In this document: in pieces, positions 292-25,722 of the stretch
Layout: every line of letters starts with the position of its first letter
How positions within the stretch are numbered: the first letter of the stretch is position 1
Source of the DNA: a virus
Length of the DNA: 46,152 nt
Virus record (IMG/VR): IMGVR_UViG_3300013128_000004
Location: 1-46,152 of that record
Direction: 5' to 3' (one strand)
The notes under the pieces: model-generated
What the model was told of the DNA's origin: nothing
What the model saw: only the letters and a program-made list of their open reading frames with translations
The model's database searches: none
Translations under genes and position numbers: made by a program

Positions 292-821
292 GATTGTCTA
301 TTTTCTTCTGGTTTTGTATTACCCGACCTTAAATGGTCATAGAAGAAACTATCATTTAGGAATCGGATAGTATCTACGTAATCACAGAAACGTTTATTGA
401 AACTTGAACCTTTTACAGACCACACTTCTACGTTTTTACCCTGCTCTTTTAAATGCTTGCATAAATCGATGAAATCGCCATCCCCACTCATGAGGACCCA
501 CTTATCGAATTCATTTATGCGCCTCATACAATCTACCGCTATAGCCATATCCTGGTCAGTACCTGTATAGCAGACACTCCCGTCAGGCTTTGTGCCTTTT
601 ACGGCTTTCTTTATTATCAGGTTGTATCCTAAAGTATGTAGGAAGTTTTCAAACTTCTTACTCTCTGCATCAGGAGTCCTGATAATATAGGCGCACATAT
701 CTACTATCTCTGGCTCATTAGCTTTGAAATGCTGAGCCAGCTTCAAGAAGTCAATTCGTTTTTGTAGGTCTTTTGCCGAAAAAAATAGATTTTGAACATC
801 TATTTGGATGTATGTTCTCAT
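288..821 (-). CDS. NYN/PIN-like (LabA/DUF88-type) nuclease domain protein
   Basis: A 177-residue protein that is almost all NYN domain. The first strand ends in the conserved Asp-x-x-Asn (IDVQN, D8/N11). A central T-x-x-D-x-x-A segment (GTDQDMAIAVD, D89/D91) and the SGDGDF block (residues 112-117) supply the other acidic residues expected to bind metal. NYN domains belong to the PIN/FEN nuclease superfamily and usually cut RNA; phage copies are mostly uncharacterised. The gene overlaps its neighbours by four bases on both sides. An RNA-degradation or RNA-processing role is inference. Confidence 0.8.
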   Translation of the reverse strand: MRTYIQIDVQNLFFSAKDLQKRIDFLKLAQHFKANEPEIVDMCAYIIRTPDAESKKFENFLHTLGYNLIIKKAVKGTKPDGSVCYTGTDQDMAIAVDCMRRINEFDKWVLMSGDGDFIDLCKHLKEQGKNVEVWSVKGSSFNKRFCDYVDTIRFLNDSFFYDHLRSGNTKPEENRQS

Positions 822-14502: not shown

Positions 14503-15114
14503 TTAAACAATATACTTACGGTCTACTTTGACGATGATATATTCCCCATCCTTGTAGGTAGAGAACTTCATACCATCTGAGAAAGCCCGTCCAGCATTAA
14601 CTTCGAGAACAACAACCTCGTCATCCTCACGAGTTGCAAATTTCTTGGCAAAATCCTTTGCCATTTCAGTAGTCTCATAGAGTTTGATGTACTTCTTTGT
14701 ATGACTCTTGAGGCCGCTATCCCTCATACGCTCTGCAAGGTTCTTCAGAGTTCCGAAATAGAGAGTTTGGGGAGGTTGGACGTACTTAACGATTTTGTAC
14801 TTGATAAGGTCTTCGCCGTTAATGAGAATTTTCTGATCTCGGTCTTTGAAGTAGAGTTCTATAACATGATTTCGGTTGATGTAGGAAAGTTCTGAAAAGC
14901 GCCACTTCAGAAAAGCTACGATGTCATCTACCTTGGCAAATCCATCAGCATCCAAGTCAATCTGGAAATCACCTATCTTAATACTCCCTGCATTCTTTTC
15001 TGCAGCTTCCCGGAGCAAATCAATCACTGTTAGAAGTGCTCTCTTAAAGTCATTTACGTTCTTGTAGAACGTTGCTGGTGATTTCTTAAGGGTTTTCCGC
15101 ACAGGTGTAAACAT
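14503..15114 (-). CDS. Tpt1/KptA-like ART-fold protein (RNA 2'-phosphotransferase family, diverged)
   Basis: 203 residues from ATG 15114, with AAAGGGG seven bases upstream; the upstream ATG at 15132 has no RBS. The N-terminal half has the winged-helix-like segment LDADGFAKVDDIVAFL, matching Tpt1 L-x-x-D-x-x-G-W-A-x-V-D-x-L. The C-terminal ART part has PPQTLYFGT (usual L-Y-H-G-T), GLKSHTKKYIKLYET, an Ala-rich helix, then TREDDEVVVLEVNAG and DGMKF. Family members use NAD+ to remove RNA 2'-phosphates. The N-terminal Arg-His pair and the His of YHGT are absent, so activity may have changed, e.g. to ADP-ribosyl transfer or none. Confidence 0.5.
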   Translation of the reverse strand: MFTPVRKTLKKSPATFYKNVNDFKRALLTVIDLLREAAEKNAGSIKIGDFQIDLDADGFAKVDDIVAFLKWRFSELSYINRNHVIELYFKDRDQKILINGEDLIKYKIVKYVQPPQTLYFGTLKNLAERMRDSGLKSHTKKYIKLYETTEMAKDFAKKFATREDDEVVVLEVNAGRAFSDGMKFSTYKDGEYIIVKVDRKYIV

Positions 15115-15142: not shown

Positions 15143-15538
15143 CTAAGATTCTTGTTGTTTACGTATATCGGCTTGTTTGGTCTTATCATCTTCTGAATCG
15201 TTTTTCAAAACCTCCTCTCGTGCAATTAACCCATCAATTATGTAATTCAGGATATCATTAACGGACTTAACCTCACCTACCAAATGTTCTAAGAGCTTAA
15301 ATAGAGGATTCTCTTTATTCTCTAACAATTCCTTGATGTTTCTTTTATCAGCATTCATAATCGAATACAAAAGACCCATAACCTGCTCAGTAACTTTTGT
15401 ATTGAAATGAACCTTCTTATGAATAAAGACTTTCAAATCCCTAGAGATTCCCTCTAAAGAAAAAGTTACTGCTGCAGTCTTTAATCTCTCTTCATTGAAC
15501 TTCTCGAATTTTCTTTTAATATTTTCTGGTTCAGTCAT
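15143..15538 (-). CDS. hypothetical helical protein (131 aa)
   Basis: Charged, mainly alpha-helical protein without a recognised family. A helical pair around residues 45-75 (VTEQVMGLLYSIMNADKRN) and 80-105 is followed by an acidic/polar C-terminal tail. It is the first gene of the leftward operon, 44 bases downstream of the promoter at 15582-15610. RBS AAGGA seven bases before ATG. As the promoter-proximal gene it is expected early, but its role is unknown. Confidence 0.65.
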   Translation of the reverse strand: MTEPENIKRKFEKFNEERLKTAAVTFSLEGISRDLKVFIHKKVHFNTKVTEQVMGLLYSIMNADKRNIKELLENKENPLFKLLEHLVGEVKSVNDILNYIIDGLIAREEVLKNDSEDDKTKQADIRKQQES

Positions 15539-15581
15539 AGTAGTCCTTACGCTGTTAAGAGCTTTTCAGGTTCATGAGAAG

Positions 15582-15610
15582 AATATACTAATTGGTTCAA
15601 GTGTTTTAAA
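15582..15610 (-). promoter_or_regulatory. leftward phage promoter, TTTAAA-N17-TATATT class
   Basis: On the minus strand TTTAAA (15610-15605), a 17-bp spacer containing TTGAACCAATTAG, then TATATT (15587-15582). Eighteen of 22 bases from TGAACC onward match the rightward copy at 15845-15873, so the two operons share a divergent promoter pair. It drives the minus-strand replication/recombination genes. Confidence 0.75.
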
Positions 15611-15844
15611 GCTGACTGTAAGGAAAATAGGACAAGAGTTTGATATCTACTTTTTTATAAAGAATCGTTTTCATATTATAATTAAATAAAGATCTAAGAG
15701 TTTACTTCCTACGGAAGGAAACAGTAATAACCAAAAAGAACCCTATCAATCCTATTACTTGGATTGAGCTTGAAAGACAGAATTATTTAAAGAATTCTAA
15801 ATATATTCATAATCTCGTACTGAAAAAAACTTTATGCCAAGAAC
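15611..15844. other. non-coding control region between divergent promoters
   Basis: Very AT-rich stretch with no credible gene. It contains an AT run (15650-15690), a CTTCC-TAC-GGAAG hairpin (15706-15718), repeat copy 1 (15718-15767), and an AGAATT/AATTCT inverted repeat (15779-15798). The location between two divergent promoters is compatible with an operator or replication-origin region; nothing decides between them. Confidence 0.5.
15718..15767 (+). repeat. 50-bp hairpin/pseudoknot repeat, copy 1
   Basis: Matches copy 2 (16557-16606) at 47 of 50 positions. It contains a 7-bp stem TCAATCC (15746-15752) / GGATTGA (15761-15767) with loop TATTACTT. Loop bases ATTACT (15754-15759) are complementary to AGTAAT (15723-15728) upstream, so an H-type pseudoknot could form if transcribed. 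Two of the three differences fall outside the stem and one in the loop, so the stem and the pairing segment are unchanged. Weaker similarity continues ~20 bases upstream. Confidence 0.85.
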
Positions 15845-15873
15845 TTTAAAAAACCTGAACCAACAAGTATATT
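15845..15873 (+). promoter_or_regulatory. rightward phage promoter, TTTAAA-N17-TATATT class
   Basis: TTTAAA (15845-15850), a 17-bp spacer with TGAACCAACAAG, then TATATT (15868-15873). The start site would be near 15880, 24 bases before the next ATG. It is the mirror partner of the leftward promoter at 15582-15610 and probably drives the rightward early operon including the clamp-loader genes. Confidence 0.75.
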
Positions 15874-15903
15874 CTTTCAAGAACAGATTAGGAGGGATCA
15901 ATT

Positions 15904-16290
15904 ATGGACAGAATCATTACTATAGTTTCACCTGATAAGATTACTCCATCTATGTTCATAGACTTTTATGAGAAACTCTATGGAGATAACAAGATAGTCT
16001 TAGTTAGGGATATAAACTTTCTCTATTCTAAGCCTGTCCAGGAAATGATGTTTGTAGACGCTCTTAAAGAAGCTAAGGAAAAAGGTCTGAGTCTTATTGT
16101 GAAGTACACCGTTAAACCAAACACAGACCTGTCTAAGTACATGATTCCTATGTGTTTTCTTGATGATTCCGATCTCGTTATTAAGTTCGATATGTACTCG
16201 ACAAAACCAGAAGTTATCAAAGATCGTCAGGAGTCCACGGCTCTACTTGAAAAGTGGGAGGCAAATATTGCCTCCCTGAACCGAACGTAA
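15904..16290 (+). CDS. hypothetical alpha/beta protein (128 aa)
   Basis: First gene of the rightward operon, with a very strong RBS (AGGAGGGATCAATT before ATG). Alternating strands and helices: an N-terminal IITIVSPDKIT, a hydrophobic strand KIVLVRDINFLY, a helix VQEMMFVDALKEAKEKG, a strand LSLIVKYTV, and DDSDLVIKFDMY. The pattern is like a P-loop-less RecA/AAA-type core, but no P-loop or other motif is present. It sits between the two 50-bp repeat copies and just before the structured non-coding stretch. Function unknown; a regulator of the early region is possible. Confidence 0.65.
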   Translation: MDRIITIVSPDKITPSMFIDFYEKLYGDNKIVLVRDINFLYSKPVQEMMFVDALKEAKEKGLSLIVKYTVKPNTDLSKYMIPMCFLDDSDLVIKFDMYSTKPEVIKDRQESTALLEKWEANIASLNRT

Positions 16291-16294
16291 ATAA

Positions 16295-16530
16295 TATACT
16301 TACGGGAACCCCCGTATGAAAGCCCCTCCGGGCGAAACGTATACGGGGAATTTTGACAGGGATTTAGGAAACCTGTTTCGTACATCAGTCTACTACTTGA
16401 AAGAGTAGGGAGATGTAGTATGACCAGAAGCCTTGAAAGGCCGATGGAGAACAGCTTATAGCGACTCTCGCTGAAATCGTAGCGTCAGAGGCTAAAGCCT
16501 TTCAGTACATAAGTCATTGATTTGACTGTG
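16295..16530 (+). ncRNA. candidate structured RNA / leader rich in hairpins
   Basis: No ORF runs through this stretch, but many complementary segments lie in order. TACGGG/CCCGTA (16301-16316) competes with an 8-bp CCCCGTAT/ATACGGGG pairing (16310-16348) enclosing GCCC/GGGC. Next come ACAGG/CCTGT (16356-16376), a two-part stem TACATC/GATGTA plus CTACT/AGTAG (16381-16417), GCCT/AGGC (16430-16441), AGCGA/TCGCT (16460-16472), AGGC/GCCT (16489-16500) and AGTCA/TGACT (16512-16527). The local GC content is above its surroundings. It could be a stand-alone RNA or the regulated leader of the delta' gene. No match to tRNA, tmRNA, RNase P or a group I intron was found by eye. Confidence 0.5.
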
Positions 16531-16556
16531 TATTGACCGACTAAATCTTTACAAAA

Positions 16557-16606
16557 GAAACAGTAATAACGAAAAAGAAGCCTATCAATCCCATTACTTG
16601 GATTGA
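16557..16606 (+). repeat. 50-bp hairpin/pseudoknot repeat, copy 2
   Basis: Second copy of the element at 15718-15767 (47/50 identical). Stem TCAATCC (16585-16591) / GGATTGA (16600-16606), loop CATTACTT, with loop ATTACT (16593-16598) complementary to AGTAAT (16562-16567). It lies in the expected leader of the delta' mRNA, ~60 bases before the start codon. The two copies bracket the 128-codon gene and the candidate RNA. Confidence 0.85.
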
Positions 16607-16610
16607 AGAA

Positions 16611-16644
16611 GTGAACTCCCGCGAGTAGGCGGGGCACAGGTTCT
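16611..16644 (+). other. GC-rich stem-loop before the delta' gene
   Basis: GAAC (16613-16616) and GTTC (16640-16643) flank an inner CCCGC/GCGGG stem around a GAGTAG loop. No T tract follows, so it is not a standard terminator. Being 25 bases before a TTG start codon, it may influence translation. Confidence 0.4.
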
Positions 16645-16668: not shown

Positions 16669-17676
16669 TTGTTCTTCACAAAGATTAAAGGACATATAGA
16701 GGTATTGTCTCAGCTAAAAGAATGGCTATTAAATGAATCATTCTCTGGGGTATATCTTTTACGTGGACCTAAAGGTGTGGGAAAGTACAGTACTGCAAGA
16801 GCACTCTCAAAGTACATACTATGCAACGGTCTAAAGGATGATAGTTGTCGATGTGACCAATGTAGACAGTTCCCGGACCACCCAGATTATTTGGAGATTG
16901 GTACTAATGAAGATGAAGAGATAAAAGTAGCGGATATAGATAGGGTTGATGAGTTTGTGACACTTCTACCCTTTAAAAGTAAGTACAGAGTTGTTTTGAT
17001 CGATAATGCAGATAATCTAAATCTTCAGGCAGGCAACAAACTGCTCAAGATTTTGGAAGACTCAAAGCCTCATACCTTATTTTTTCTTGTTTCTTCATTC
17101 CCTGAGAAGCTACTTCCTACCGTTCAATCCCGGACATGCCCAATAGAGTTCAAGGCGCTGCAGTCGGAAGATGTGCTTGAAATCCTAAAAGCTCAAGGAA
17201 TGGAATCAAGTAAGATAGAAGCTTTGAGAGGCGCTATCCCTTTTCTTACTCAGAGTGTCCTAAAAAATGCTCTTAAGTATTATGAGTATGTGAAAGAACT
17301 CCCTGGATTCTTAGCTAGCTTTTCCACAAAGACAGAAGATGAGATTTTGTCTTATGTGAGTTCAGTAAATGAAAAAGAAGAACTTTTCTATTTTATAGAG
17401 GTTCTATTGGTATATACCAATGATATTTTGAAAATAAAGTATGATGGTTCTGATTCAGTTATTTTCAAGAGTCATTACGAGGCTTTGGTAAAAATCTCTC
17501 TGGATTGGACTGATGATATTTGTGTGGCTTTAACTGAGAAGTTAAGAAAAGTCATCATAGATAATAACAAGAATTTATACATAAAGCTATACCCAAGAGT
17601 GCGGGTATCTATTAGTTGGGTATACATGATATTAAAGACAGAGATAGAGAAAAGGAAAAAGAAAAATGGATTCTAA
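16669..17676 (+). CDS. holB: DNA polymerase III delta' subunit-like clamp-loader ATPase
   Basis: 335 residues, starting at a TTG codon with GAAGGGA six bases upstream; no ATG start is better placed. AAA+ core: P-loop GPKGVGKYS (33-41), a four-cysteine zinc module (C52, C60, C62, C65), IDNAD in place of Walker B DEAH, and SRT (154-156) at the arginine-finger position (usually SRC). The C-terminal part is all helical, as in delta'. Together with delta and gamma/tau it should load the phage-encoded beta clamp. It overlaps the delta gene by 11 bases. Confidence 0.85.
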   Translation: MFFTKIKGHIEVLSQLKEWLLNESFSGVYLLRGPKGVGKYSTARALSKYILCNGLKDDSCRCDQCRQFPDHPDYLEIGTNEDEEIKVADIDRVDEFVTLLPFKSKYRVVLIDNADNLNLQAGNKLLKILEDSKPHTLFFLVSSFPEKLLPTVQSRTCPIEFKALQSEDVLEILKAQGMESSKIEALRGAIPFLTQSVLKNALKYYEYVKELPGFLASFSTKTEDEILSYVSSVNEKEELFYFIEVLLVYTNDILKIKYDGSDSVIFKSHYEALVKISLDWTDDICVALTEKLRKVIIDNNKNLYIKLYPRVRVSISWVYMILKTEIEKRKKKNGF

Positions 17677-19303: not shown

Positions 19304-19607
19304 TCGCGGTGTTGTAATAGAAATAGATATCGATAAAGAGAGGCTTCGAGAGATCGTTTCTGAAGCGCTTAGAATGATATACGAGTACCTTGGTGGGGAG
19401 TATACTTTAACGCGAGAAGAAGTCCTGGCAGAATTAGAGAGCTATATAGGCATAGACCGAATTTCTACTGAGTTCTTTCTTCATATAGGAAGTAAGTCTA
19501 TACCAGACATGAAGATGCGCGTAGACCCACGGAGAAGAAAAGTTTTTCTGAAATCGAGTTTCAAGAAAAAAGTAGCCAAACTTAACCATTTTGTGAAATT
19601 ATTATGA
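19296..19607 (+). CDS. hypothetical protein (103 aa)
   Basis: No recognised domain. An acidic N-terminal strand (VVIEIDIDKERL) is followed by helices and a very basic C-terminal third (DPRRRKVFLKSSFKKKVAK), which might bind nucleic acid. Coupled to both neighbours by short overlaps (8 and 4 bases). Confidence 0.55.
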   Translation: MIDRGVVIEIDIDKERLREIVSEALRMIYEYLGGEYTLTREEVLAELESYIGIDRISTEFFLHIGSKSIPDMKMRVDPRRRKVFLKSSFKKKVAKLNHFVKLL

Positions 19608-25098: not shown

Positions 25099-25722
25099 AT
25101 GACTCATTTGGTAAAAAATATGGACCCGTTTGAAATACAAAGTCGTTTTTCCACGGAAAACTTTTCTTTTTATTCCTTTAAGGAAAGTACTTTTTGTCTG
25201 GATGATTTTGAGCCTTTTATACAGAAGCTGCCGAAGCGTGAAATCGATCTTATCGACATGTACTATAAGAGACAGAAGAAGCAAAAAGAAATAGCTGAGT
25301 TCTTTAACGTTACTCAGGGAGCCATTTCTCATCGTTTATCTCGTGCCAGAAAAAGATTAGCTTTTCTTAGGGATATGCCAAAGGTATCTGGGGACTTGCG
25401 TGTTCAGCTATCACGTCATTTTACAGACTTTGAATGTGATATCATAGTTCTTATGGTAGAGACTACATGCCAATCCAGGACTGCAGAGCTTTTGAATGAT
25501 AAGTATGAACTTACAGAGAAAGACAAAATGACTCAGGTTAAGGTCCGGCATAAATTTGATCGTTCTATAGATAGAATGAAAAGGTTAAAGAGAAAATATC
25601 CAGAATTAAAAATAATGTACGAACTATCTAAGTACATAAAAAAGAATTTGTATATGCTTCATGAAGTCGTATTACCCCATTTTGATAAGGGGTATAAGGT
25701 AGAATATGATGGGGTATACTGA
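25099..25722 (+). CDS. sigma-like protein with tandem region-4-type HTH motifs
   Basis: 207 residues. Residues ~44-90 (LPKREIDLIDMYY ... QKEIAEFFNVTQGAISHRLSRARKRL) are a clear sigma-70 region 4 HTH. Residues ~108-165 repeat the pattern: FTDFECDIIVLMVETT, then SRTAELLN, an inserted loop, and TQVKVRHKFDRSIDRMKRL. No region 2 is seen, so it may be a late-gene activator or a partial sigma factor. It lies just before the first virion promoter motif (25763-25778). Strong RBS AGGAGGATAGTAG. Confidence 0.7.
   Translation: MTHLVKNMDPFEIQSRFSTENFSFYSFKESTFCLDDFEPFIQKLPKREIDLIDMYYKRQKKQKEIAEFFNVTQGAISHRLSRARKRLAFLRDMPKVSGDLRVQLSRHFTDFECDIIVLMVETTCQSRTAELLNDKYELTEKDKMTQVKVRHKFDRSIDRMKRLKRKYPELKIMYELSKYIKKNLYMLHEVVLPHFDKGYKVEYDGVY

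Follow-up and report, generated by a model that had tools for sequence, protein, structure and literature searches.

Paired intergenic sequences at a replication-gene locus of huge phages: a possible RNA-guided origin acting in trans

Bacteria and phages normally rely on initiator proteins to recognise their replication origins, or on a transcript synthesised in place to open them. Guide RNAs of OMEGA (TnpB) and Cas12 systems have a structured scaffold at the 5′ end and a guide at the 3′ end, and are directed at DNA targets. Among the described systems closest to the locus reported here, RNA II of ColE1 is a structured non-coding RNA whose persistent RNA–DNA hybrid opens the origin and can prime; it acts in cis, 550 bp downstream of its promoter (PMC5043065). 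The T4 origins, which have few sequence features in common, include oriF and oriG, where an R-loop forms in an AT-rich unwinding element of a phage with a RecA-type recombinase and the RNA is a local transcript from the origin promoter (PMC3016281). In vitro, T4 replisomes start from RNA annealed within the unwinding element, without a promoter (PMC3016281). In Tetrahymena, the 26T RNA helps recognise the origin as part of the origin recognition complex (ORC), as mentioned in PMC4412123; this eukaryotic RNA is a ribosomal RNA fragment bound to ORC, with no dedicated guide gene beside the origin. Constitutive stable DNA replication in Escherichia coli starts from R-loops formed by transcript invasion (PMC4412123).

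The phage locus described here carries two copies of one noncoding sequence, and we propose that the second copy may be the guide of a structured RNA that pairs with the first. Such an RNA would resemble RNA II in that its hybrid opens an origin. Unlike RNA II, however, it would act on a second DNA copy situated 0.8–1.1 kb upstream of the RNA gene itself, with guide and copy diverging together; in six of six genomes the matching RNA region lies 785–1101 bp downstream of copy 1, which does not correspond to the cis arrangement of ColE1. An AT-rich element adjoins the proposed hybrid as it does in T4-type origins, although T4 has neither a scaffold RNA nor a second copy of the sequence. The order of scaffold and guide and the presumed DNA target recall OMEGA and Cas12 RNAs, but here the target would be an intergenic site of the phage itself, the match spans 32–64 nt, and no effector gene was found in the records searched (see below). 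The Tetrahymena system is alike in that an RNA contributes to origin recognition, and constitutive stable DNA replication in that R-loops start replication, the latter having no dedicated guide RNA or paired site. Our literature search found no described equivalent of the paired-site architecture.

Paired copies and their layout in six genomes

The window, i.e. the whole stretch of DNA analysed, is an entire IMG/VR record of 46,152 bases and represents a piece of a huge-phage genome. Its terminase leads to contigs of up to 470 kb (28–70% identity), and its portal is similar to the portals of an uncultured 485-kb phage, Tunturi_5 and Bacillus phage G. Two gene arms of a replication and recombination cluster diverge at the repeat, which is accompanied by the following features:

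15143–15538, − strand: gene of a 131-aa protein, the divergent, leftward neighbour (open reading frame; homologues at the corresponding position in G001, G008 and probably in G002)
15579–15611, − strand: leftward promoter-like element (GAACCAAT-TAGTATATT), inverted partner of 15844–15876 (motif scan)
15638–15698, no strand assigned: AT-rich stretch, about 83% AT, putative unwinding element
15700–15722, + strand: DNA hairpin GTTTaCTTCC-TAC-GGAAGgAAAC at the left edge of copy 1 (DNA fold)
15718–15767, + strand: copy 1, presumed target of the RNA in the DNA (94% identity to copy 2)
15844–15876, + strand: rightward promoter-like element (GAACCAACAAGTATATT), inverted repeat (motif scan)
15904–16290, + strand: gene of a 128-aa protein, conserved marker of the locus (alignments of relatives)
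16291–16556, + strand: structured intergenic stretch, presumed RNA scaffold (z −5.4; GC 44% against 38% for the window)
16502–16536, + strand: pre-guide hairpin, 20 nt upstream of copy 2 (pairing probability about 0.9; z −4.1)
16557–16606, + strand: copy 2, presumed guide within the RNA (identity to copy 1)
16613–16643, + strand: hairpin after copy 2 (minimum free energy fold)
16669–17676, + strand: clamp-loader delta′ gene (Pfam DNA_pol3_delta2, E 4e-35)

The 50-bp direct repeat reported in the original prediction was confirmed: 47 of 50 positions match, the differences being C>G, C>G and T>C, and, extended to 53 nt, the repeat still matches at 92%. The repeat is far above chance. There is no third copy in the window, where copies 1 and 2 are the sole such pair, and about 1.5 Mb of related phage DNA yielded one other pair outside the locus (29 nt, terminator-like) when both copies had to be noncoding, at least 28 nt long, at least 85% identical and 300–2500 bp apart.

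The window shares its layout with five other genomes of very different huge phages (G001, G008, G004, G002 and G021). The order is AT-rich stretch, DNA hairpin, copy 1, gene of an approximately 125-aa protein, noncoding stretch of 260–420 nt, copy 2 and clamp-loader gene, with two short genes between copy 2 and delta′ in G002. G001, G008 and G004 were reached via homologues of delta′, and G002 via alignment of the 128-aa protein. G021 (contig L193, 182,677 bp, 65% GC) was retrieved after the pattern had been formulated and is a test in which the pattern could have failed; it fits, with 33 of 33 positions identical between copies 837 bp apart, and just two copies in the whole record. The copies measure 50 nt in the window (94% identity), 35 nt in G001 (91%), 32 nt in G008 (97%), 41 nt in G004 (100%) and 64 nt in G002 (100%), so that the six genomes span 32–64 nt, 91–100% identity and distances of 785–1101 bp.

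Local alignment of copy 1 with copy 2 of the same genome scores 29–64, against shuffled maxima of 11–25, and between genomes the guides show no more resemblance than shuffled sequences do (15 pairs, p 0.05–0.99). As the guides are alike within but not between genomes, each pair changes together, and this identity without a shared sequence points to base pairing between the copies: sites recognised by a single protein family should retain a shared core, whereas pairing segments would behave as seen here. We regard the paired-site architecture, which can be read directly from the sequences, as solid. In the window, G001 and G008 together the copies differ at seven positions, four of them with T in copy 1 and C in copy 2, a bias that would fit cytosine deamination on a displaced + strand, seven differences being too few to judge. 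The stretches read of distant relatives and partial contigs (L093–L107, L150–L189) contained no such repeat. Used as queries against viral contigs, neither the exact element nor single proteins gave a match, whereas terminase and alignment queries did lead to relatives; a scan of genome contigs returned distant clamp-loader genes only.

The element had been predicted to form a conserved hairpin and pseudoknot. Both window copies do contain the 7-bp stem TCAATCC/GGATTGA and the complementarity AGTAAT/ATTACT, and the copy itself folds at −8.2 kcal/mol; they give no covariation evidence, however, because none of their differences falls in a paired position. A pseudoknot with all six loop pairs would leave 1 nt to cross a 6-bp stem and is sterically doubtful. 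Conservation was contradicted by the five relatives, which lack the pairing and whose copies are unstructured (0 to −0.6 kcal/mol, against −8.2 in the window). Judged by these comparisons, the conserved features are the identity of copies within a genome and the surrounding architecture, not the pseudoknot. The suggested NusG-like recruitment likewise gained no specific support. The prediction was right in holding that the duplicated element looks functional and that a DNA role (origin or operator) or an RNA role is worth considering; probably it has both, copy 1 acting as DNA and copy 2 as RNA.

Features at copy 1 and copy 2

In five genomes, AT makes up 82–90% of the 60 nt left of copy 1; the G021 locus has 35% AT, against 52–67% in the sequence beside copy 1 (67% in the nearest 30 nt). 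All six genomes have a short, perfect or near-perfect DNA hairpin that overlaps or abuts copy 1 on its left side; it is confined to this copy, with folding energies of −3.8 to −12.4 kcal/mol against 0 to −1.9 kcal/mol at copy 2 (window −6.5 against −1.9, G021 −12.4 against −1.6). Three of the six copy-1 hairpins carry C(GNA)G triloops on the + strand (GAA, GTA and GTA), an unusually stable loop type in DNA. These triloop hairpins are located at about 590–620 in L043, about 535–560 in L044 and about 318–340 (reverse) in L045; the window hairpin has GTA on the − strand.

Copy 1 had also been placed between divergent promoters; in our motif scan, divergent promoter-like motifs flank it in three genomes (the window, G001 and G008). 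The two window elements form a 33-nt inverted repeat (88%). The motif, GAACC-N6-TATATT with a AAGTATATT core and short spacing, has similar counterparts in the relatives and may be read by a phage sigma-like factor (25099–25722). Relative to copy 1, the rightward motif is downstream in these three and upstream in G004, where copy 1 could therefore be transcribed. Further sites of the motif in the window are at 14517, 16301 and 39380, all on the − strand. An 18-nt repeat (94%) at 16288–16305 and 14504–14521 contains a leftward promoter-like motif; its copy at 16288–16305 lies at the 5′ boundary of the scaffold and would yield an antisense transcript over the 128-aa gene and copy 1. No leftward motif was found at this boundary in the relatives.

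Copy 2 belongs to the 378 noncoding nucleotides that separate the 128-aa gene from delta′; the computed fold of this stretch is far better than that of its shuffles (z −5.9). The whole-scaffold z value is −5.4 in the window, −2.4 in G004, −1.3 in G008, −0.8 in G001 and near zero in G002 and G021, so that a convincing fold of the entire scaffold is seen in the window alone, with a moderate one in G004 and a weak one or none elsewhere. Given this weak folding outside the window, we infer, rather than take as proven, that the noncoding stretch specifies an RNA. A full secondary structure common to the scaffolds could not be aligned, and the MAFFT alignment of the scaffolds was uninformative; by eye, the scaffolds of G001 and G004 appear to have a P1/P2/pseudoknot topology in common. 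Scaffold GC content is raised to 42–48% compared with 27–38% in the surroundings in the five AT-rich phages. A local stem-loop stands 13–26 nt before the guide, with a Fisher combined p of 8e-6 over six genomes and individual z values of −4.1, −3.4, −2.1, −3.7, −1.5 and, in the GC-rich genome, −0.15; taken alone, it is not significant in G002 and G021. All six guides consist of 44–66% A, including that of the 65% GC genome G021, where the guide has 52% A and the locus 16%. In the observed sense, the RNA:DNA hybrid is calculated to be 2.8–8.1 kcal/mol more stable than the duplex DNA in six of six genomes. Covariance models of Rfam 15 gave no match at the gathering score in the window and the relatives other than G021.

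A possible trans-acting origin and competing readings

The leftward arm encodes a beta clamp-like protein, a nuclease, phosphoesterase and SMC-like proteins, RecA, RuvC and RecD2, together with an RNA 2′-phosphotransferase and the 131-aa protein. The rightward arm comprises the 128-aa protein, delta′, delta, a primase-like protein, DnaX, a NusG-like protein, a 5′–3′ exonuclease and the sigma-like factor. In G001, the locus is the main divergence point of gene orientation. Because a replication-gene cluster, divergent transcription and an unwinding element meet at this locus, its location suggests a replication origin. GC skew switches at the locus; GC3 skew hardly does, which indicates that the switch mainly tracks gene direction, and as such it is no proof of an origin. 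No gene of the RNase HI family was found, which counts against the origin model.

We infer transcription of an RNA, its pairing with DNA in trans and a start of replication, and arrange these in a hypothetical sequence of events in which (i) the locus probably encodes a structured RNA extending from about 16291 to at least 16606; (ii) copy 2, forming the 3′ part of this RNA, would supply a 50-nt guide with the sequence of the + strand of copy 1; (iii) in trans, this guide would base-pair with the − strand of copy 1, displacing the + strand and giving an R-loop; (iv) the AT-rich unwinding element adjoining the R-loop would open, and the DNA hairpin on the displaced strand, which overlaps the left edge of the hybrid, would help keep the R-loop open; (v) the open R-loop, and the RNA 3′ end after processing, would start DNA replication. 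The origin would be recognised via RNA–DNA base pairing and not by a sequence-specific initiator protein. Pairing of the RNA in cis would also be possible, since copy 2 is itself DNA of the same sequence. In vitro, purine-rich RNA forms R-loops in trans on supercoiled DNA (PMC3770058).

We consider it fairly probable that a guide-like RNA pairs with the DNA of copy 1, and an RNA–DNA guide relation is the most likely reason for the paired-site architecture. The best-supported function is a trans-acting R-loop replication origin, and we put the probability of this full model at roughly 0.45. Slightly more tentative is the most far-reaching reading, in which the phage encodes a scaffold RNA whose long 3′ guide would select the phage's own replication origin and open it in trans by RNA–DNA pairing, guide and origin drifting together so that each lineage holds a private, mutually incompatible origin code. 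If true, an origin designated through base pairing by a separate RNA would represent a different principle of origin recognition. The origin would be programmable, and a joint change of guide and site should keep or move it; the model would also suggest how homologous huge phages keep incompatible replicons. Sequence pairs that match within but not between genomes would offer a search route for such systems. Even if replication is not the function, a module pairing RNA with its own DNA in phages of 27% to 65% GC would be unexpected.

Leftward transcription across copy 1 would make the RNA a perfect antisense over 32–64 nt, and the RNA might then regulate the leftward transcript in trans and thereby control the leftward replication and recombination genes. 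The leftward promoter-like motif at 16301 in the window would favour such a regulator, which we nevertheless hold to be unlikely. That motif is not found at the same place in the other genomes, and the leftward motifs nearest the leftward gene sit left of copy 1 in the window, G001 and G008, so that the leftward message would lack copy 1; moreover, RNA–RNA pairing leaves the DNA hairpin and the AT-rich stretch at copy 1 unexplained. An RNA-guided protein effector, Cas12/TnpB-like or new, could instead bind copy 1 and regulate the divergent promoters, in keeping with the promoter-like motifs on both sides of copy 1 and with a scaffold followed by a guide, as in TnpB and Cas12 guide RNAs. It appears rather improbable: TnpB/Cas12f (PF07282) was absent from five records (two large, the others fragments) in searches with positive controls, the guides exceed 20 nt and match over their whole length, and the neighbouring 128-aa protein has no nuclease family match.

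Readings that dispense with a pairing RNA have to account for the same pattern. Were the copies protein-binding DNA sites (operators or iterons), one initiator could bind both, and paired direct repeats of the iteron type are common near origins. Homologous neighbours should then keep a common core, yet the guides of different genomes stand at shuffle level; together with an identity over 32–64 nt that tolerates hardly any change and a hairpin at copy 1 only, this makes protein sites quite improbable in our view. Gene conversion, recombination over the 0.8-kb interval or reverse transcription might also keep the copies alike by copying rather than by selection for pairing, given that repeats often evolve in concert and that the interval might conceivably act as a recombination cassette. 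Against such copying, which we rate as very unlikely, stand the sharp boundaries, the constant position and polarity in six genomes, the hairpin and AT stretch that remain at one copy only, and the absence of reverse transcriptase (PF00078), the gene required of retrons, DGRs and other reverse-transcriptase systems, from five records, some of them fragments, with positive controls.

The marker protein and further observations

The 128-aa protein is the best candidate for a partner of the proposed RNA. Its counterparts in the relatives are 24–43% identical to it, and a clear homologue is absent in Phage G, Tunturi_5 and LR745208. AlphaFold confidently predicts an alpha/beta fold (pLDDT 86) like P-loop/RecA cores, without a Walker A motif; comparison of the predicted fold returned weak similarity to a generic P-loop/RecA-like core only (Z about 9), and Pfam and PHROG gave no family match. 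On the predicted structure, a degenerate clamp-loader-like domain is neither supported nor excluded.

The TTG start of delta′ and the structured stretch upstream of it had suggested a group I intron. This candidate was rejected: in the alignment the TTG start coincides with the ATG or GTG starts of the relatives at the same residue, RF00028 gave no match at E ≤ 10 in the window and none in the relatives, and the delta′ reading frame is uninterrupted.

The RNA 2′-phosphotransferase adjoining the locus in this huge phage (14503–15132, − strand) belongs to the Tpt1/KptA family (Pfam E 1e-10). Repeats of other kinds were observed in related contigs: long collagen-like coding repeats occupy 12370–19944 of L105, a related phage contig, and a 32-nt repeat, ATATTCCCCGCGTATGCGGGGCTGGGCCGATA, which resembles a type I CRISPR repeat, occurs twice in L126, 409 bp apart at 19415 and 19824 (about 339.4 kb in G002).
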